A DNA stretch of 64,000 nt from Fusibacter sp. 3D3 (GTDB lineage: Bacteria > Bacillota > Clostridia > Peptostreptococcales > Acidaminobacteraceae). The notes under the pieces are model-generated. The model was not told the origin of the DNA. It searched no databases and saw only the letters and a list, made by a program, of their open reading frames with translations. The stretch lies in NCBI RefSeq assembly GCF_001748365.1, contig NZ_BDHH01000004.1, positions 64,346 through 128,345 of the forward strand, in the 5' to 3' direction. A program made the translations under genes and the position numbers. This document shows, in pieces, positions 39,770 through 58,137 of the stretch (the stretch's first letter is position 1; each line of letters opens with the position of its first letter).

Positions 39770-39784
39770 CGGGTTTAAAAATCT

Positions 39785-39872
39785 AATCACATTTCCTACG
39801 TTGGCATTATCCAAATCAGGTACGGTCGAAGTTCAATTACTTCCTCTCAGCCTGAAATACAAGCTCCCGAAA
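39785..39872 (-). ncRNA. TPP riboswitch
   Basis: The minus strand shows the THI-box signature: CTGAGAGGAAG, then ACCTGATTTGGATAATGCCA and ACGTAGGAAA, in the right order and spacing. Thiamine pyrophosphate binding should favour the terminator at 39735-39769 and shut off thiSFGHE. The gene-free stretch 39672-39988 is filled by this switch, its attenuator and its promoter. Confidence 0.96.
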
Positions 39873-39904
39873 AATATTCAATTTTAATTTGTTGATTCGT
39901 GATT

Positions 39905-50733: not shown

Positions 50734-51399
50734 TTATAAATAATTTGCCTCAAATTCACGATACCCTTTATTTCTGAGTTCACACGAAGGACAAGCGCCG
50801 CACCCCTCCCCAATGATCCCGTTATAACAGGTGAGGGTTTCATTTTTAATGGTCTCCAGGACGCCTAAATCGTAGGCCATTTTCCAGGTCTGCGCTTTAT
50901 CAAGCCACATAAGCGGTGTATGAATGACGAATGGATAGTCCATCGCAAGATTTAAAGTCACATGCGTTGATTTTATAAAGACATCTCTACAATCTGGGTA
51001 TCCACTAAAATCACTCTGAGAAACACCCGTTATAATATGATGAATATCCCTTTGCTTTGCAAATACAGCCGCAAATGTTAAAAATATAAGATTTCTGCCA
51101 TCGACAAACGAATTTGGCAGTTCGCCCTCCGGCTTTTCTTTACAGACCTCAATATCGCGTCTTGTCAAAGAATTGGGTGCCAATTGGTTTAATAAAGACA
51201 TATCCAAGACGTGAAACTCTACATTATTATTTTTACATATTTTTTCAGCACAAGTCAATTCAAATATATGTTTTTGACCGTAATCAAAAGATATGGCAAT
51301 AACCTCATCATACGCCTTTAAAGCCCAAAATAAACAAGTGGTACTATCTTGACCCCCACTAAAAACAACAACTGCCTTACGCTTTAATTTTTCATTCAT
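50734..51399 (-). CDS. queC: 7-cyano-7-deazaguanine synthase (QueC)
   Basis: A 221-aa enzyme making preQ0 from 7-carboxy-7-deazaguanine with ATP and ammonia. P-loop SGGQDST (14-20), [13 protein letters not shown], and a C-terminal zinc site [15 protein letters not shown] 51399 follows GAGGAGG; the upstream extension has no ribosome site. Last intact gene of the preQ1-riboswitch operon. Confidence 0.96.
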
Positions 51400-51431
51400 G
51401 TTTGCCTCCTCGTCTTTATAACAGCCCACGT

Positions 51432-52013
51432 TTACAATAGCCCGATGATCTGATTGGCCAAATAAGGTTCCGATTTAAAACGGCCTCTAAAAGTTTTGGT
51501 TATGGTTTTTGCCCCTGGCTTTCTGATTCCACGTGTGGTCATGCAGCTGTGCTCGCCCTCAATGATCACAGCCACATCTTCACTCTCACTGATTAATTGA
51601 ATGATCTCAGCAATATCTTTTCCAATGCGTTCTTGGAGCTGTAAACGTTTTCCAACTAAATCTGCCACTCTTGTGATTTTACTAAGTCCAATGACTTTTT
51701 GCTTTGGCATATAGGCCACGGCAACTTTCATATTATACATTAAGGCAAAGTGATGCTCACAATATGAAAATATTTCGATATCTTTCATGAGAACAAAATC
51801 GTCTGTGCCTGCTTCATAATACGTTTCATCTTCAAACGTGACGTCATAGAGCTTGGCAATCTCCGCATTTGAATACGCTATCCCAGCAAAGTTCTCCATG
51901 CACATCTTTGCAAATCGCTCGGGGGTATCCACAAGACCTTCGCGATCAGGATTTTCACCAAGTGCCTCTAAAATTTCTTTAAAGGCACTTTCTAGTCTTT
52001 TTTGATCGATCAT
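51432..52013 (-). CDS. folE: GTP cyclohydrolase I (FolE)
   Basis: A 193-aa enzyme converting GTP to dihydroneopterin triphosphate, the first step to preQ0 as well as folate. Zinc motif [24 protein letters not shown], and [10 protein letters not shown] with the third zinc ligand. ATG 52013 is preceded by AAAGAGG and begins 1 nt after the queE stop. Its placement among queC/D/E shows a dedicated role in deazapurine synthesis. Confidence 0.96.
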
Positions 52014-52014
52014 A

Positions 52015-52683
52015 TCAAACACCTCTTTCATCCGGATTCCAGATGATTTTGTGGAGCTGTAACTGCACACGCACGCCATTTAATTGCTTCGCCTTCATAA
52101 AATCGACGATCTGCAGGGGCTCTATCTTGCCATATACAGGGCTCAATAGAATGTGGCACCTATCTATCAATTCATAATCACGTACGATTTCAGCCACTTG
52201 CTCAAGCTCTTTTGGACTACTGATAACAAATTTCAAAACATCATCTTTGGTGAGCGCAGTAAAATTCGCTAAATACATGTGCGCTTCCATCTGGCTGCCC
52301 TCTAACTTGTAGTCCATCGTAAAGGCAATGCGCTTATAACCTTGCGCCTTAAACAGGGCTAAATCAATACTCCCATTCGTTTCAATTTCAACTTCTATTT
52401 GCTCATCCTGATCTAAAAAAGACAGCAGGTCTTTTATCCCCTTTTGAAGCAAAGGCTCACCGCCTGTTAGTGTGACATTTTTAATTCCCGCCGCTTTGAT
52501 CTTTTTATAAATCTGCGCCTTCGTCTGCCACTCGAAATCGACATCGGCAGCATTTGCCCACTTCGTATCACAATAACTACAATTGAGATTGCATCCTGCA
52601 AATCGTATAAAATAAGCCAGTTCGCCAGCTTTCAGGCCCTCTCCATTGATACTGCTAAAGGATTCTACCACCTGATACTTCAT
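52015..52683 (-). CDS. queE: 7-carboxy-7-deazaguanine synthase (QueE), radical SAM
   Basis: A 222-aa enzyme converting carboxy-tetrahydropterin to carboxy-deazaguanine. The cluster motif is C31-x3-C35-x2-C38 ([12 protein letters not shown]), preceded by [18 protein letters not shown], and followed by [12 protein letters not shown]. It overlaps queD by 4 bp. Confidence 0.95.
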
Positions 52684-53108
52684 AAGGTCACCCCTTCAAA
52701 ACTTGCACAGTTCGTAGGCGTCTCATAGACTTCAATGCTCTTCACGCTGTAACCTCTACGGGTCATTTGATCATAAAAATGCGCACTAAAAGATTCTGCC
52801 GTGGGCCTAAACATCACTTCGATAACCCTGAAGTCATCCTCTATTAAACACGCTAAAGTCTTTGCCTTCATACTCCCCTTTTCAATAATGAGCGCATGGT
52901 CAAAGTAATCCACTTCTATTTTCAAATCCCGCTTAAGATCTCCAAAATCAACGATCATACCGCGTAATATACCTTCTTCAACTAATTTTTCAGAATAAAT
53001 TTCAGCGACAACACGCCATCTGTGACCATGAATATTGGCACATTTGCCTTGATAATCTTTTAAAAAATGAGCGCTGTCAAAACTATGTTCACATTTAAGA
53101 AAGTACAT
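52680..53108 (-). CDS. queD: 6-carboxytetrahydropterin synthase (QueD)
   Basis: A 142-aa homologue of PTPS. Zinc ligands H14 (FDSAHF), H27 and H29 (IHGHRW); catalytic Cys23; DFGDLK; and a C-terminal ETPTNCASFE. ATG 53108 follows GAGAGGGGG. It overlaps the activase gene by 14 bp, which ties the activase/dehydratase pair to the que genes by translational coupling. Confidence 0.95.
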   Translation of the reverse strand: MYFLKCEHSFDSAHFLKDYQGKCANIHGHRWRVVAEIYSEKLVEEGILRGMIVDFGDLKRDLKIEVDYFDHALIIEKGSMKAKTLACLIEDDFRVIEVMFRPTAESFSAHFYDQMTRRGYSVKSIEVYETPTNCASFEGVTL

Positions 53109-53889
53109 AAGTTGCCCCCTCTCTACTTTTCTGCCTCTTTTTATGCGCCAAAACACAACACCCGATCGCACCGTTAAATTGAGGCTCTTTCAGACAAATG
53201 ACATTCTGATAATCCTGTTTTAAATACGAGATCAAGGCTTTATTATAGGCAACGCCGCCTGCCACAAGCAATCGATTGCCTTTGAATTTAGTGAGCATGG
53301 GTTTAAGTCTTTTATAAAGTGAATAATTTACCCCAGCACAAAGGTGCTCTAAGCGGATGCCTTCTGCAATTTTCCCGATGAGCTCAGACTCTGTAAAGAC
53401 AGCACAAGTTGAGTTTAGTGCTACTGGGTTCTCCGCATAAGTGGATAGTCTATCCATATCCACTTCAAGAATCTGGGCCATGTTCTCTAAATATCTGCCA
53501 CATGAAGCCGCACATTTATCATTAAGGGCCATGTCCATCATTTTGCCCTTTTCAACTTGCATAATTTTGATATCCTGTCCACCGACATCCACTAATATAA
53601 AGTCTCTGAGATTAGATTGATAAACGGCACCTTGAACATGAGCTTTCACTTCATTGACTACTGTGAAACTTTCTAGATCAACATTATTTCTACCATATCC
53701 CGTCGATATGGCAGCATCAAACTTACCCAGTTTCAACTTTTCAAAATCCACAACAATCTTATCTTTATACGCGCAATAATCTCTGTAAAATTGCATCGTA
53801 CTGATCTTCTTCTTTTCGATAATAAAGCCCTCTTCCATAACGACAAGCTTCACTTCACGGCTTCCAAGGTCTATTCCTAGTATTTTCAT
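53095..53889 (-). CDS. HgdC/BadF-type ATP-dependent activator (acyl-CoA dehydratase activase family)
   Basis: A 264-aa ASKHA-fold ATPase. GIDLGSREVKLVV (phosphate 1), LVDVGGQDIKIMQ (phosphate 2), and the cluster cysteines C126 (NDKCAAS) and C162 (NSTCAVFTESE) that bind a [4Fe-4S] between two subunits. An extra Cys130 replaces Thr in the usual CAAGTGRF motif. Such activators use ATP hydrolysis to inject one very low-potential electron into a partner protein. The partner here is encoded immediately upstream (overlap 4 bp). The operon is controlled by a preQ1 riboswitch, which points to a reaction in queuosine or preQ1 metabolism rather than amino acid fermentation. Confidence 0.85.
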   Translation of the reverse strand: MKILGIDLGSREVKLVVMEEGFIIEKKKISTMQFYRDYCAYKDKIVVDFEKLKLGKFDAAISTGYGRNNVDLESFTVVNEVKAHVQGAVYQSNLRDFILVDVGGQDIKIMQVEKGKMMDMALNDKCAASCGRYLENMAQILEVDMDRLSTYAENPVALNSTCAVFTESELIGKIAEGIRLEHLCAGVNYSLYKRLKPMLTKFKGNRLLVAGGVAYNKALISYLKQDYQNVICLKEPQFNGAIGCCVLAHKKRQKSREGATYVLS

Positions 53890-54884
53890 TTGTCTGCCTC
53901 TATTTCACAAATCATATCCACAAAGGCTTCAACGCGTAGTTTCGTCCGCGCATCCATTGTATTCAACTTATCGCCCTCAATCGTCAACATAGGGATCTTC
54001 AGCCGATCGCGCAAAACGATATCTTCGATCGCTCGATGACAAAATGCCTGTGTGTAATGAATAATGCCGTGAACATGACGTGCTTCAATTTGTTTCACTA
54101 TTTCTGCTATTCTAAAATCAAGTTCATAAGGATAGGTATAATCAAAGTATTGTTCATATATATTTTTTGCCTGACCTGCCCGTGGGAATGCAAATTCTCT
54201 TTGGACTTCATTATAGACAAAGCGCGCATCCAACGCTTCCACAAAGTCAAATAAGTCGCCAGTCATAGGCGGTACGCCGATATAAGCTAGCCGGATCATT
54301 TTCGGATTTTCTTGACGCTTGCTGATCTCATCTCGTTTTTGGGTTAGTAAAGCTTCATAAGCCTCTGGATTCCCATTAAAATCACTCAAGCAAAGCTGTA
54401 ACAAGTGATTTTCAAACCCTGTGACCTTATGTGTGTCATAGGTAAGCTGATCAATTTCAATAGCATTTGCTCTGATCTTATTGAGGTGCTTTCGTGTGAA
54501 TTCTACGGTATTTTCGTCTATCTCAAAGCGTTTACTAAATGTCTTTATCGACATCGTAACCGCTTCTATCGTATGTTCTTGTGGAAAGGCGAATGGATAA
54601 ACCTCAATCCCTTTCATTTTCATGACTTCAATTAAAGCCTTAGTGTTAGAACAATCCCCTTCAACGACTCCGATTACTTCTTTTATATCGTGCCTAATAC
54701 AAGCGCCATATATGCCTTTTGTCCAAGCACAAGTGCTCTTTGGAAAACCCTCTTTTTCAGCCAATTCAATATAGGCCAAATAATCCGCAGAGGTTATGAA
54801 CAGATTGTTCAAATCCACTGGCGTATAGCCTGCTGCTATCAACACTTCTATTGGTACTGTTGTTGTTAAACCGATCTTTTTCAT
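53886..54884 (-). CDS. 2-hydroxyacyl-CoA dehydratase-like (HgdB family) protein in a queuosine operon
   Basis: A 332-aa protein of the HgdB/D-component family (also benzoyl-CoA reductase and double-cubane proteins). Candidate [4Fe-4S] ligands are C52 (STCAWTKGIYG), C78 (VVEGDCSNT) and C282 (YTQAFCHRAIED). These match the conserved positions of the family. It is a single subunit, where fermentative dehydratases have two. ATG 54884 follows AAAGGAG. It is the first gene after the preQ1 riboswitch, and its activase and queD, queE, folE, queC follow. I infer an ATP-driven reductive step on a deazapurine or a precursor; no exact reaction can be assigned. Confidence 0.82.
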   Translation of the reverse strand: MKKIGLTTTVPIEVLIAAGYTPVDLNNLFITSADYLAYIELAEKEGFPKSTCAWTKGIYGACIRHDIKEVIGVVEGDCSNTKALIEVMKMKGIEVYPFAFPQEHTIEAVTMSIKTFSKRFEIDENTVEFTRKHLNKIRANAIEIDQLTYDTHKVTGFENHLLQLCLSDFNGNPEAYEALLTQKRDEISKRQENPKMIRLAYIGVPPMTGDLFDFVEALDARFVYNEVQREFAFPRAGQAKNIYEQYFDYTYPYELDFRIAEIVKQIEARHVHGIIHYTQAFCHRAIEDIVLRDRLKIPMLTIEGDKLNTMDARTKLRVEAFVDMICEIEADK

Positions 54885-54909
54885 GATACTCCTTTCAAAA
54901 AAAGCAAAC

Positions 54910-54966
54910 AAAAAAAGGGCCTGCTCGCCCTAAACAAAAAAAGCACTTATGTAATTCATACAAGTG
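54910..54966 (-). terminator. Tandem hairpins (attenuators) behind the preQ1 riboswitch
   Basis: Hairpin 1 (54944-54966) has a CACTT/AAGTG-based bulged stem, followed by seven T on the minus strand. Hairpin 2 (54916-54931) is AGGGC/GCCCT, followed by another T-run. Two consecutive terminators between aptamer and first gene suggest tight off-control. Confidence 0.75.
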
Positions 54967-54970
54967 TAAG

Positions 54971-55009
54971 TCCTAGTTTTGTTTATAGACAGGATGGTTA
55001 CGAACTGTC
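54971..55009 (-). ncRNA. preQ1-I riboswitch
   Basis: On the minus strand, P1 is GACAG (55005-55009) with CTGTC (54988-54992), the loop contains GTAACC, and the A-rich tail AACAAAACTAGGA can pair back to the loop as the H-type pseudoknot. This matches the Thermoanaerobacter tengcongensis preQ1-I switch in order and in the GTAACC and AACAAAAC segments. It is about 40 nt, as expected, and lies upstream of deazapurine genes, which supports the call. Confidence 0.9.
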
Positions 55010-55057
55010 TTATTCCATTAGTTTGACCTTATTCATGCGTATTTTTACCGCCTGTAC

Positions 55058-55086
55058 ATTATACCTTTCATCCCTACAAAAAACAA
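55058..55086 (-). promoter_or_regulatory. Promoter of the preQ1-riboswitch operon
   Basis: On the minus strand, TTGTTT (55081-55086), 17-bp spacer, TATAAT (55058-55063), about 50 nt ahead of the aptamer. Confidence 0.75.
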
Positions 55087-55113: not shown

Positions 55114-55145
55114 CCTCAAAAAAAGCGGCGTAAAAAACGCCGCTA
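55114..55145 (-). terminator. Terminator of the GyrI-like gene
   Basis: AGCGGCG and CGCCGCT form a 7-bp stem with T-run on the minus strand. It overlaps the stop codon of the gene (55143-55145). Confidence 0.85.
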
Positions 55146-55598
55146 CTCTAATCCGATATAAATATCAATCGTTTGATGGTCCATGTCACCATTTTCATTA
55201 TGATAGAGTTCAAAGTCATAAGCGTACTTTCGTTTGAGGTCCATTGCCCATATAGCTTGCCATGCTTTGCCAACAGATTCTACGGCATCCCCGATCACTG
55301 TAAATTTTGCATATTTGCCACCCGCGATGGTTCTCGTCTCAAAACCAGATTGTTCCCCTTTTGAAACCGCCACACAGCACATAAAGCGATACGGGTTTGT
55401 AACATCCCCTTCATAATCGGTATAGAGGCCAATGCCTTCGCCCGTGGTTTTATGCTCAATGCGCTCAAAATGCCCTTCGCTGATAAACTTTTGCCACATT
55501 GCACCAATATCATACATCGCCTGTCCATTTTCATTGGTTGTCATGATCGATTGCCCCACAACTGTTATGTCTTCAAGTGTTACTATTTCATAATTCAT
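55143..55598 (-). CDS. GyrI-like effector-binding domain protein
   Basis: A 151-aa stand-alone GyrI/AraC effector-binding (SOUL-like) fold. Features are VVGQSIMTTNENGQ, GEGIGLYTDYEGD, FETRTIAGGKYAKFTVIG and a C-terminal FELYHNENGD, IDIYIGLE. Such proteins bind small hydrophobic molecules and can act as drug-binding or accessory effectors. ATG 55598 follows GGGAGAGG. The WYL regulator gene lies 100 bp upstream on the same strand; the two may be a pair, as often seen. Confidence 0.82.
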   Translation of the reverse strand: MNYEIVTLEDITVVGQSIMTTNENGQAMYDIGAMWQKFISEGHFERIEHKTTGEGIGLYTDYEGDVTNPYRFMCCVAVSKGEQSGFETRTIAGGKYAKFTVIGDAVESVGKAWQAIWAMDLKRKYAYDFELYHNENGDMDHQTIDIYIGLE

Positions 55599-55696
55599 AA
55601 AGCACCTCTCCCTATCTTTTGTAGTCTCTGTTATAGTATCTATAACCACATTATAAGGTACCTAATATGACAACAGCATGTCATATTAGGTGGAGT

Positions 55697-56671: not shown

Positions 56672-57991
56672 CTAGGGTTCTCTCACAAGCCCTATAAACA
56701 ATGCAGCACCACTTGCATCATCTTTTATAATATATAGAAAAGGTCTATCACATTTAAAAGTCACAGGTTCACTCGGCATCGCAGATGTTGTTGCGAATTC
56801 TGCTACCGTCACTGCGGCTGCTTCTGTTCCCTTTTCATCTAGTATAATGCGTGCATTTTGAAAAATAGAACTGATATATAAATTTTCGCCCTCAATCTCA
56901 ATCATCTTTCCAAATTCTGCTTCAGTTCTAGAGAAGGCTCTCCCCATGCCCTTAGCCGTAAGCAAATCCGTTAAACCATTGCTCACTTCATAATCAAACT
57001 TAGGCAAACTCAACTCTAATCTTTGCATCTCATTTTGATTAGCTTGAATCATCTTTTGAAAATCGTCATATTTCAATGTACTTAAAAAATCATCCAAGTT
57101 TCCTTTTGGCAAAACCAAAACCAAGCTGCTACCGCCATAATAGGGTAAACTTGTCATCTGATATGATGCGTCTTCGTAATATGTCAAACTGTTTGTTTTA
57201 TGCATCATCTTGACTGGGGTTGTCTCTGTTTCTGTTTTGAAAAAGGTTTCTTCTTGCGTTGCCGATTCTGAGAATTCATCAATCCAAGTCCCCTTAAAAT
57301 ACACCGTATTCATCAAATATGCAATGGTCTCCGCGTCAATTTTGTCAAAAGTGCCCTTGAGCAGATGATTCGTCTGTGCTTCAACCCATTGGTTCATTTG
57401 ATCCACTGTTTTGAGATCACTAAAATCAGAACGATAGACCTGTGCATTGTAAAAAGCACCTAAAGTATCCACAAAATCTTGTTTAGGCTCAAGTGTATCC
57501 TTAAACCATAAAGAATTTGCAATTTTCATCTTAATGCCCGGGACATCCGAATCTTCTTTTTTATCGAGGGCATTCAAATAGTTCATTAATAGGTTATAAC
57601 GTTCATTAAGCTCGACTTCCGTATCACCCATTACTTCTAAAATACCCGATTTCGTTTCACCTTCTGCGCCATTTACAATCATTGCAAGTGCAAATGATAG
57701 ACTGGTTGGAGAGAACAGCAAATTCCCATCTTGATTTTTTTTCGCCATCTCTTGAATCAATTCGAATCCCATTTGATTAGATGCCATAATACCTGTTTCA
57801 ACCCTATCCTCTATTTCAGGGACCTCGTTGTTTATAACTTTAAAAGCTTCCGATGTCTGCGCCAAACCTTTTATAGGCGTCACTTCACCATGATCACTTG
57901 TGCATCCGGCCAGTAATATCAAAGATACAATGAGTACTGCAATCATACTCATATGTAAACTTCTAAAAATTTTATGCCTTTTTTTATCCAC
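56672..57991 (-). CDS. Serpin lipoprotein
   Basis: A 439-aa serine protease inhibitor. Lipoprotein signal with lipobox LLAGC, then the serpin fold: NLLFSPTSLSFALAMIVNGA, LMNTVYFKGTWIDEF, and the reactive loop. The hinge reads EKGTEAAAVT, which counts from P17 to P8; by length the scissile bond is Thr(P1)-Ser(P1'), followed by AMPSEP. The final strand has CDRPFLYIIKDDASGAALFIG. The intact small-residue hinge says inhibitory rather than storage serpin. Start is GTG 57991 after AAGGAG. Surface anchored, so it probably protects against external proteases. Confidence 0.93.
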   Translation of the reverse strand: MDKKRHKIFRSLHMSMIAVLIVSLILLAGCTSDHGEVTPIKGLAQTSEAFKVINNEVPEIEDRVETGIMASNQMGFELIQEMAKKNQDGNLLFSPTSLSFALAMIVNGAEGETKSGILEVMGDTEVELNERYNLLMNYLNALDKKEDSDVPGIKMKIANSLWFKDTLEPKQDFVDTLGAFYNAQVYRSDFSDLKTVDQMNQWVEAQTNHLLKGTFDKIDAETIAYLMNTVYFKGTWIDEFSESATQEETFFKTETETTPVKMMHKTNSLTYYEDASYQMTSLPYYGGSSLVLVLPKGNLDDFLSTLKYDDFQKMIQANQNEMQRLELSLPKFDYEVSNGLTDLLTAKGMGRAFSRTEAEFGKMIEIEGENLYISSIFQNARIILDEKGTEAAAVTVAEFATTSAMPSEPVTFKCDRPFLYIIKDDASGAALFIGLVREP

Positions 57992-58137
57992 CTTGCCACA
58001 CTCCTTTAAAATATAATTGGGTATTGAACACACTTTATTTGACGGGTGAACTTATTAAAAAGTTCCATCGTGCTCTTCGTGCTCTCATTGGCATCGAACT
58101 TAAAAGAAGCTTATCTGCCCAAAATATTGAAATAGAT

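Follow-up and report, generated by a model that had tools for sequence, protein, structure and literature searches.

Which enzyme reduces preQ0 to preQ1 in Fusibacter sp. 3D3? The question is raised by a six-gene operon on the minus strand (positions 50734–55086 of the window, the whole 64 kb stretch of DNA analysed), in which genes for an HgdB-like protein and an HgdC-like activase are followed by queD, queE, folE and queC. The preliminary description had noted that the window shows no QueF, QueG or QueH. The whole source genome (97.4% complete) was searched: QueF and QueH were likewise not found in it, but a QueG-like protein was present (171 bits, below the curated cut-off of 200; TIGR00276, E = 3.3e-50), as were TGT and QueA.

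Operon and leader

The features of the operon are listed in Table 1. The order of the six genes and the overlaps of 4 bp (hgdB/hgdC) and 14 bp (hgdC/queD), as originally described, were borne out by profile searches and by the sequence. QueD matched PF01242 with 97.6 bits (cut-off 22.4) and TIGR03367 with 83 bits, slightly below its cut-off of 89.25. The preQ1-I aptamer described at the head of the operon was confirmed by its conserved motif, which occurs once in the window, though its RF00522 score falls short of Rfam's gathering cut-off of 39 (E = 0.0035 in a 301-base search); for this reason, the aptamer is missing from the gathering-level Rfam listing. The promoter and tandem attenuators that had also been described were recovered by different routes: the promoter by eye, the upstream attenuator from the RNA fold and its U-run, and the downstream one from the terminator scan. 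A consensus promoter scan requiring at least four of six matches in the first hexamer returned nothing at threshold in the leader.

Table 1. Features of the operon and its leader (window positions).
Feature	Position	Strand	Basis
Candidate promoter	55058..55086	-	TTGTTT 55086-55081, 17 nt spacing, TATAAT 55063-55058; read by eye
preQ1-I riboswitch aptamer	54967..55013	-	RF00522 25.1 bits and conserved motif
First attenuator hairpin, then U-run	54936..54971 (about)	-	RNA fold and sequence; not listed by the terminator scan
Second attenuator (intrinsic terminator), then U-run	54916..54931	-	Terminator scan and RNA fold
HgdB-like catalytic subunit, 332 aa; proposed preQ0 nitrile reductase	53886..54884	-	PF06050, fold, Cys set
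HgdC-like ATP-driven activase, 264 aa	53095..53889	-	TIGR00241 177 bits; 1hux E 3.4e-35
queD (6-carboxytetrahydropterin synthase)	52680..53108	-	PF01242; start read from sequence
queE	52015..52683	-	TIGR03963 (QueE_Clost) 324.2 bits, cut-off 260.1
folE (GTP cyclohydrolase I)	51432..52013	-	NF006826 219.4 bits, cut-off 162; start chosen by eye
queC	50734..51399	-	TIGR00364 263.7 bits, cut-off 150.3; start by eye, after AGGAGG

Proteins of the pair

The HgdB-like protein matched PF06050 (HGD-D) over residues 8–325 with 130.9 bits, above the Pfam gathering score of 28.4. Its AF2 model (pLDDT 92.2) has the two-domain α/β fold of the dehydratase, BzdNO and DCCP (VIA Z 26–33 over 311–326 residues in ten family rows); the next row outside the HGD-D family reached only Z 7.4. 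Three cysteines, Cys51, Cys77 and Cys281, are invariant in 110 of 110 rows of the first clade and 27 of 27 of the second (rows include duplicates), and their columns align to cysteines in Escherichia coli YjiM. From the alignment, they form a putative three-cysteine ligand set of a (proximal) [4Fe–4S] cluster. A fourth cysteine, Cys61, is present in 98 of 110 first-clade rows but in none of the 27 second-clade rows. Within the HgdB/BcrBC/double-cubane superfamily, the protein represents a branch with three cysteines.

The activase belongs to the TIGR00241/PF01869 family (cut-off for TIGR00241, 125.4 bits), and its two bridging-cluster cysteines, Cys126 and Cys162, are conserved in all 125 aligned rows (110 of 110 and 15 of 15). 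Neither protein of the pair matched QueF (PF14489) in profile searches.

Linkage to the preQ1 switch and que genes

A species-genome survey was assembled from one scan, with 80 loci kept out of 118 relatives; it overlaps the loci of the order sample described below (138 tree rows, 132 of them different, with further pairs at zero-length branches). hgdC directly followed hgdB in all 80 survey loci, and a preQ1 motif was located upstream of the pair in 75 by regular expression. queD was identified in 62 of the 80 loci, queE in 61, queC in 62, queT in nine, yhhQ in two and queF in none. In eight further survey loci, a queuosine-precursor transporter gene (queT or yhhQ) stood downstream in place of queC. 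Salvage operons consisted of the pair with queT (six survey loci) or yhhQ (two) and lacked queD, queE and queC. No recognised que or transporter gene was found downstream of the pair in six of the 80 loci (L118, L130, L139, L150, L156 and L170), five of which still carry the switch; a seventh locus, L176, ends 840 bases past hgdB.

Two gene orders were observed around the pair, BC-D-E-(folE)-C and BC-C-D-E. In 26 of the 28 order-sample loci, the motif (stem, loop and ACUA-G 3' strand) lay before the hgdB orthologue. The regular expression matched none of 14 000 mononucleotide shuffles; a looser version was abandoned after matching 340 of 5600. At the gathering score, Rfam reported no preQ1 element in 20 + 17 loci (pair loci L002–L028 and QueF loci L056–L065), and this cut-off is too strict for this preQ1-I variant. 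In one genome (G111) the pair is separated from queDEC, with a motif before each piece; in another (G291, locus L221) the activase is absent from the locus sequence examined. The pair with its motif and its que or transporter linkage was found in clostridia, fusobacteria and halanaerobia, as assigned by record titles. The linkage to queCDE and preQ1 switches thus came out of the neighbour survey as had been predicted, and it is not local chance.

Mutual exclusion with QueF

In an order sample of 198 genomes, the pair was found in 28, QueF in 13 and both in none. Of the 34 genomes with a true QueC, 26 had the pair only, seven had QueF only, none had both and one had neither; this last genome carries a DpdA/DpdC-type DNA system. 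In a phylum sample of 249 genomes, the corresponding numbers were 50 with the pair, 61 with QueF and none with both; among the 73 with QueC, 42 had the pair only and 31 QueF only, with none in either remaining class. The exclusion in the phylum sample has a Fisher probability of 2.6e-21 (without tree correction) and a within-family stratified probability of 1.4e-4. Pair-only and QueF-only states occur side by side within seven families (f1, f2, f3 and f11; f20, f49 and f50), with no genome holding both. Eight of the 50 phylum-sample genomes with the pair lack QueC.

PF14489 matches above E = 1e-7 were counted as not QueF. Six such weak matches were inspected, and proved to be five FolE and one P-loop protein; two more (G086 and G098) coincide with the FolE of the operon, and the remainder, alike in model range and length, were classed as not QueF. 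PF06508 matches weaker than a limit of E = 1e-50 in the order sample, or 1e-30 in the phylum sample, were excluded from the QueC set on E-value alone. In the phylum sample, three of the 61 QueF matches (G399, G407 and G451) run across a stop codon, and the pair call in G483 is a fragment of 175 residues. In the species-genome survey, 50 of the 80 genomes were searched; QueF was found in none of these 50 pair genomes, and their four weak matches were three FolE and one P-loop protein.

QueF occupies the slot matching that of the pair in sister operons, both biosynthetic and salvage. All seven genomes of the order with QueF and QueC have a queF domain no more than 0.3 kb from queC, and a preQ1 motif precedes queDEC-queF in four of six loci examined. 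Five of six loci with QueF and no QueC are queT-queF salvage operons, all five with the motif; these are mirrored by preQ1-hgdBC-queT and preQ1-hgdBC-yhhQ.

A second clade of the pair

Of the 50 phylum-sample genomes with the pair, 47 carry a second HgdB-like clade (41–48% identity). In the loci examined its gene is not beside que genes, its neighbours being Asp/Glu racemase or methylaspartate genes, RNase PH and Ham1-family genes. The partition in the phylum sample therefore rests partly on shared ancestry. The motif was matched in none of 27 second-clade loci, in two of which (L181 and L182) the gene lies at another offset. Rfam at the gathering score also reported no preQ1 element in 18 second-clade loci, which says little because the cut-off is too strict. 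In the tree, which included 27 of the 47 lower-identity members (15 second-clade activases were aligned), the clade falls between que-linked groups and is set apart by only two fixed differences, both conservative.

Among the 40 second-clade genomes with QueC, twelve queC loci were examined. A DUF366 gene (PF04017) lies between queC and queE in five, assigned by Pfam in L238, L240 and L244 and by position and length only in L241 and L243. As a QueF replacement in these genomes DUF366 was rejected: no such gene was found beside queC in seven of the twelve loci (queC surroundings only).

Proposed function and alternatives

The genomic evidence strongly supports the reading of the pair as a replacement of QueF. 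Because of the exclusion with QueF, the slot swap and the preQ1 switch, we infer that it acts on preQ0: the pair is very probably the preQ1 synthase of its host, an ATP-driven [4Fe–4S] preQ0 nitrile reductase that is not orthologous to QueF. In the proposed mechanism, preQ0 would be supplied by QueC or imported by QueT or YhhQ. A low-potential donor (ferredoxin or flavodoxin) would give an electron to the HgdC-like homodimer, which would hold a bridging [4Fe–4S] cluster, and ATP hydrolysis would drive the electron onto the predicted [4Fe–4S] cluster of the HgdB-like protein at Cys51, Cys77 and Cys281. Four such electrons, with protons, would convert the nitrile of preQ0 to the aminomethyl group of preQ1, with preQ0 probably sitting at the open iron site or close to it. 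The preQ1 would then be inserted by TGT and finished by QueA and QueG, and would turn the operon off through the preQ1-I switch. NADPH suffices for QueF, so ATP-driven low-potential electrons look costlier than needed for preQ0. The downstream steps represented in the source genome (TGT, QueA and the QueG-like protein) and the fold and ligands of an ATP-driven reductase count for this reading.

That the pair instead reduces epoxyqueuosine (oQ), substituting for QueG or QueH at the last step, is extremely unlikely. The operon shared with Q genes and the reductive chemistry would suit such a role, as would a source genome without QueH and with a QueG-like protein below its curated cut-off; yet that protein matches TIGR00276 clearly, QueG was found in 23 of the 28 order-sample pair genomes and QueH in three more (the other two are only 85% and 73% complete), and if the pair were an oQ reductase, these genomes would have no enzyme for reducing preQ0. 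Because 26 of the 28 retain QueG or QueH, this half of the earlier proposal, that the pair replaces either QueF or QueG/QueH, is not supported; the half concerning QueF stands, with no QueF in the genome, the exclusion among queC genomes and the same slot. We also regard as very unlikely a role further upstream (on 7-carboxy- or 7-amido-7-deazaguanine, at the QueE/QueD step or as a redox partner of QueE) with another enzyme reducing preQ0. The pair does adjoin queD in many operons, but the salvage operons dispense with queD, queE and queC, and one genome (G103) has the pair, switch and transporter without a true QueC. Apart from the operon families, no gene family is common to more than six of 27 pair neighbourhoods, and QueC occurs in QueF genomes that lack the pair, as do QueD and QueE in those of their loci that were read.

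We consider it highly improbable that the pair serves as an anaerobic reductase in some unrelated role (for a CoA ester or in housekeeping) and that its match to QueC and lack of QueF merely follow lineage. The neighbours of the second clade and the phylum-sample statistics without tree correction would favour this explanation. Against it, the motif and the que or transporter linkage span three groups of bacteria, gene orders differ between loci, both states occur within seven families and never in one genome, and the second clade is nested between que-linked groups with just two conservative fixed differences.

Returning to the pair as preQ0 reductase, we consider it likely that an ATP-driven [4Fe–4S] radical-type enzyme of this kind carries out the reduction of an aromatic nitrile to the amine within nucleobase metabolism and serves strict anaerobes (clostridia and relatives, fusobacteria and halanaerobia) as their standard preQ1 synthase. 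This would include the second, unlinked clade, on which many queC-containing genomes without queF would rely, and the enzyme would alternate with QueF by repeated replacement in biosynthesis and salvage operons. If so, the missing preQ0-to-preQ1 step would be filled in a large set of QueF-less anaerobes, the HgdB/BcrBC/double-cubane superfamily would gain a tRNA-modification role and a defined nitrile substrate, and a small three-cysteine system would be at hand for ATP-driven reduction of a C–N triple bond without nitrogenase. Predictions of which gut and soil community members make and share queuosine precursors would also change; a passage of one gut-genome reconstruction includes QueF in the signature for Q prototrophs (PMC6593275). 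Searches of open-licence PubMed Central returned nothing linking queuosine with 2-hydroxyacyl-CoA dehydratase, acyl-CoA dehydratase, double-cubane or benzoyl-CoA reductase, preQ1 with hydroxyglutaryl-CoA dehydratase, or queuosine with DUF366.

Comparison with known systems

The pair resembles QueF in its proposed reaction, its slot in the queDEC operon, its partnership with queT in salvage operons and the preQ1 switch upstream. It differs in having no sequence relation to QueF, which is a Cys-thioimide/NADPH enzyme, and in coming from an Fe–S, ATP-driven family. The best PDB sequence relative of the HgdB-like protein is a double-cubane protein (7yyl_C, E = 7.5e-15; DCCP/DCCP-R entries 6eno, 7yyl and 7yzm), which is also ATP-driven and a near-top fold match (Z 32.0). 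Identity as a double-cubane reductase was nevertheless rejected: NF040772 gave 50.1 bits against an equivalog cut-off of 350, three cysteine columns are invariant rather than the six of DCCP ([8Fe–9S]), and the HgdB-like protein is about 90 residues shorter.

The HgdB-like fold likewise matches BzdN of the class I benzoyl-CoA reductase BzdNO (Z 32.8) and the β subunit of 2-hydroxyisocaproyl-CoA dehydratase (Z 30.6), and the HgdC-like protein matches activases of this group (1hux and 4eht). The set Cys51, Cys77 and Cys281 can be compared with the three-cysteine [4Fe–4S] cluster of BzdO (Cys95, Cys128 and Cys380), which has a water-bound iron according to a passage of PMC11971306. Those enzymes have two unlike subunits, whereas the deazapurine-linked pair operon has a single HGD-D protein among its six genes, which does not fit the two-subunit make-up of a 2-hydroxyacyl-CoA dehydratase or class I benzoyl-CoA reductase. 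One HgdB-matching frame was found per neighbourhood in 27 of 27 (blastp E up to 1e-5; more distant paralogues could escape), and the operon context argues against a CoA-ester substrate. The closest parallel within the pathway is QueH, a non-orthologous replacement of QueG (Zallot, 2017, as cited in a passage of PMC5372724): there too a Q-pathway enzyme is swapped for one of an unrelated family, at another step and from another family.

Queuosine genes and the window operon

The genome of Fusibacter sp. 3D3 (5.1 Mb, 97.4% complete) was searched for enzymes of queuosine (Q) synthesis. Whole-genome searches returned neither QueF nor QueH, both absent from the window according to the preliminary description. 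QueG, which it also listed as missing from the window, has a candidate in the genome: a QueG-like protein of 399 residues that matches TIGR00276 with E = 3.3e-50 and scores 171 bits where the cut-off is 200. The genes for QueA and TGT are both present, side by side. With QueA, TGT and the QueG-like protein in place the organism should make Q, and among the Q enzymes sought only that for preQ0 to preQ1 is without a candidate.

The leader of the window operon (minus strand) carries the preQ1-I aptamer and two terminator-like hairpins. Six tightly packed genes follow, encoding an HgdB-like (HGD-D) protein of 332 residues, an HgdC-type activase of 264 residues, QueD, QueE, FolE and QueC; the overlaps of 4 and 14 bp were correctly described before. 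Features with coordinates are collected in the table.

Table. Features located in the window and in fetched loci of relatives
Feature	Position	Strand	Remarks
preQ1-I aptamer	window 54967-55013	-	Rfam, 25.1 bits, under gathering score
GyrI-like/Cass2 effector-binding protein (PF14526)	window 55143-55649	-	immediately upstream of switch; terminator at its end
TPP riboswitch	window 39776-39880	-	60.9, above Rfam gathering score of 54.3
Lipoprotein-like frame, 453 residues	window 56672-58033	-	no NCBIfam match; looks serpin-like by eye
Reading frame, 677 residues	L049, between 6538 and 8998		separates hgdB from hgdC of que operon
Protein with DpdC-like and DpdA-like parts, 794 residues	L082:2916-5300		beside queC, queD and folE2
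DUF366 (PF04017)	L238:4276-4836		between queC and queE, second-clade genome
DUF366 (PF04017)	L240:3032-3595		as above
DUF366 (PF04017)	L244:3873-4433		as above

Linkage of the pair to que genes

Orthologues of hgdB, one per genome and 47-64% identical to the window protein, were found in 28 of 198 genomes of the order sample (own genome included; 24 genera), with no match from E = 1e-97 up to the limit of 1e-20. In all 27 relatives hgdC lies downstream, and queD, queE and queC follow the pair in 23. The remaining four deviate: G179 breaks off where its contig stops, the pair stands alone in G103 and G111, and G045 has queE and queC in displaced positions. Any other gene family is shared by six of the 27 neighbourhoods at most. 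The relative G043 deviates in gene order (queC-queD-queE) and all three genes are distant in sequence, which argues for a link that was selected rather than inherited as one block.

A further 80 loci were kept from 118 in a scan of species genomes, overlapping partly with the order set. According to their record titles they come from clostridia (Clostridium, Caloramator, Tepidibacter, Ruminiclostridium and others), fusobacteria (Propionigenium, Psychrilyobacter and an Ilyobacter MAG) and halanaerobia (Halonatronum, Halanaerobacter, Fuchsiella and Natroniella). All 80 have hgdC after hgdB, and 75 have a preQ1 motif within 450 nt upstream; the loci contain queD (62), queE (61), queC (62), folE (39) and the transporter genes queT (9) and yhhQ (2), and queF in none. 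The association with que genes or the switch, raised as a question in the preliminary description, recurs in both sets.

A strict aptamer motif, present in 0 of 14,000 mononucleotide shuffles, lies upstream in 26 of the 28 order loci; one of the two missed (L007) has a near match by eye. In G111 the pair and the separate que genes each have their own preQ1 motif. In G103, which lacks true queC, the motif precedes hgdB-hgdC and then a gene for a transporter of queuosine precursors, which scores 173.5 bits with TIGR00697 (cut-off 50.95).

Assignment of the reductive step

The pair had been proposed to replace either QueF or QueG/QueH. The latter role, reduction of epoxyqueuosine, is very unlikely because 26 of the 28 order pair genomes keep QueG (23) or QueH (3); completeness is 85% and 73% for the two genomes with neither. 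The QueF role is strongly supported by genomic evidence, as QueF and the pair co-occur in none of the genomes sampled. Of the 198 order genomes 13 have QueF (E < 1e-31), and all 13 lack the pair. Among 34 order genomes with true QueC (E < 1e-50), 26 have the pair, seven QueF, none both and one neither. In this exception (G018) queC accompanies folE2 and a 794-residue protein matching DpdA and DpdC; judged by these matches, the locus (L082) is a DNA 7-deazaguanine system. Such systems use preQ0 as starting compound.

In the phylum sample (249 genomes) the pair was found in 50, one match being a fragment (G483), and QueF (E < 1e-18) in 61, with no overlap. The QueF matches in G399, G407 and G451 each read through one in-frame stop codon. 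All 73 genomes with QueC (E <= 1e-30) have one or the other, 42 the pair only and 31 QueF only. The Fisher probability of this exclusion is 2.6e-21 with the tree ignored, and the exact probability stratified within families is 1.4e-4; both states occur within seven families. QueF was absent from the 50 titled pair genomes searched (of 80), four weak matches being three FolE and one P-loop protein.

Gene positions show QueF and the pair in exchangeable slots. In each of the seven order genomes with both queF and queC, no more than 0.3 kb separates queC from the queF domain; the order queD-queE-(folE)-queC-queF was found in five of six such loci fetched (both genes of the sixth, L090 of G077, were masked by the reading-frame filter) and a preQ1 motif in four. 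Of six order QueF genomes without QueC, five have preQ1-queT-queF; in G010 (L097) queF has no adjacent motif or QueT. The pair operons read hgdBC-queDE(folE)C, hgdBC-queT (6 loci), hgdBC-yhhQ (2) or hgdBC-queC-queT (3), and the pair occupies the QueF position in both biosynthetic-gene and transporter operons. The loci L131, L138 and L172 have preQ1-hgdB-hgdC-queC-queT with queD and queE not recognised nearby, an arrangement that suggests import of a precursor resembling 7-carboxy-7-deazaguanine.

Second clade

Homologues at 41-48% identity occur in 47 of the 50 phylum pair genomes. Sixteen neighbourhoods, from 18 loci, were fetched (L215-L224, L227-L232); ten of their recurrent genes were identified, including those for Asp/Glu racemase or methylaspartate enzymes, a metallo-beta-lactamase-fold protein, RNase PH, a Ham1-family protein and a metallophosphatase. 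No que genes were recognised in the 16 and no preQ1 motif at the loci examined; hgdC is distant or absent in some. QueC is present in 40 of the 47 genomes, compared with 31 of 199 without the pair. The 27 members tested form one clade (support 100) placed between que-linked groups, in a tree whose outgroup branch is very long and whose root is unsure. Across both clades 62 columns are nearly invariant and identical, 40 of them differing from E. coli YjiM, and the two fixed differences between clades are conservative. We infer that the second clade is the same enzyme, unlinked to que genes. A literature search found no paper connecting DUF366, seen in que operons of such genomes, with queuosine.

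Proposed reaction and comparison with known enzymes

The genes, operon, switch motif, exclusion with QueF and conserved cysteines are the observed parts of a scheme in which the pair would reduce preQ0 to preQ1 in four one-electron, ATP-driven transfers. A donor would supply the electrons, the cluster would have an open iron, and preQ1 would repress the operon. Searches of the open-licence literature found no paper that ties the family names to queuosine or preQ1; a description outside that scope may exist. In a published reconstruction over 2,228 gut genomes QueF is part of the Q-prototroph signature (PMC6593275).

The activase matches 1hux, and each of the 125 rows in its alignment retains the two cluster cysteines. 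The HgdB-like protein was modelled confidently with AlphaFold2 (pLDDT 92.2). Its top structural matches are BzdN (Z = 32.8, r.m.s.d. 2.3 over 313) and DCCP (Z = 32.0), with the 2-hydroxyisocaproyl-CoA dehydratase beta subunit at Z = 30.6; the first match beyond the family has Z = 7.4. DCCP chains are also the nearest solved ones by sequence, but with the NCBIfam double-cubane model, whose cut-off is 350, the protein reaches 50 bits. Only Cys51, Cys77 and Cys281 are invariant, unlike the six cysteines that hold the [8Fe-9S] cluster in BzdN and DCCP; this set fits BzdO, in which three cysteines hold a [4Fe-4S] cluster with water on the fourth iron (PMC11971306). The same paper describes reduction of acetylene, hydrazine and azide by DCCP and places 4-thiouridine-5'-monophosphate desulfidase partly within the family; these are precedents for multiple-bond reduction and for a base substrate, respectively.
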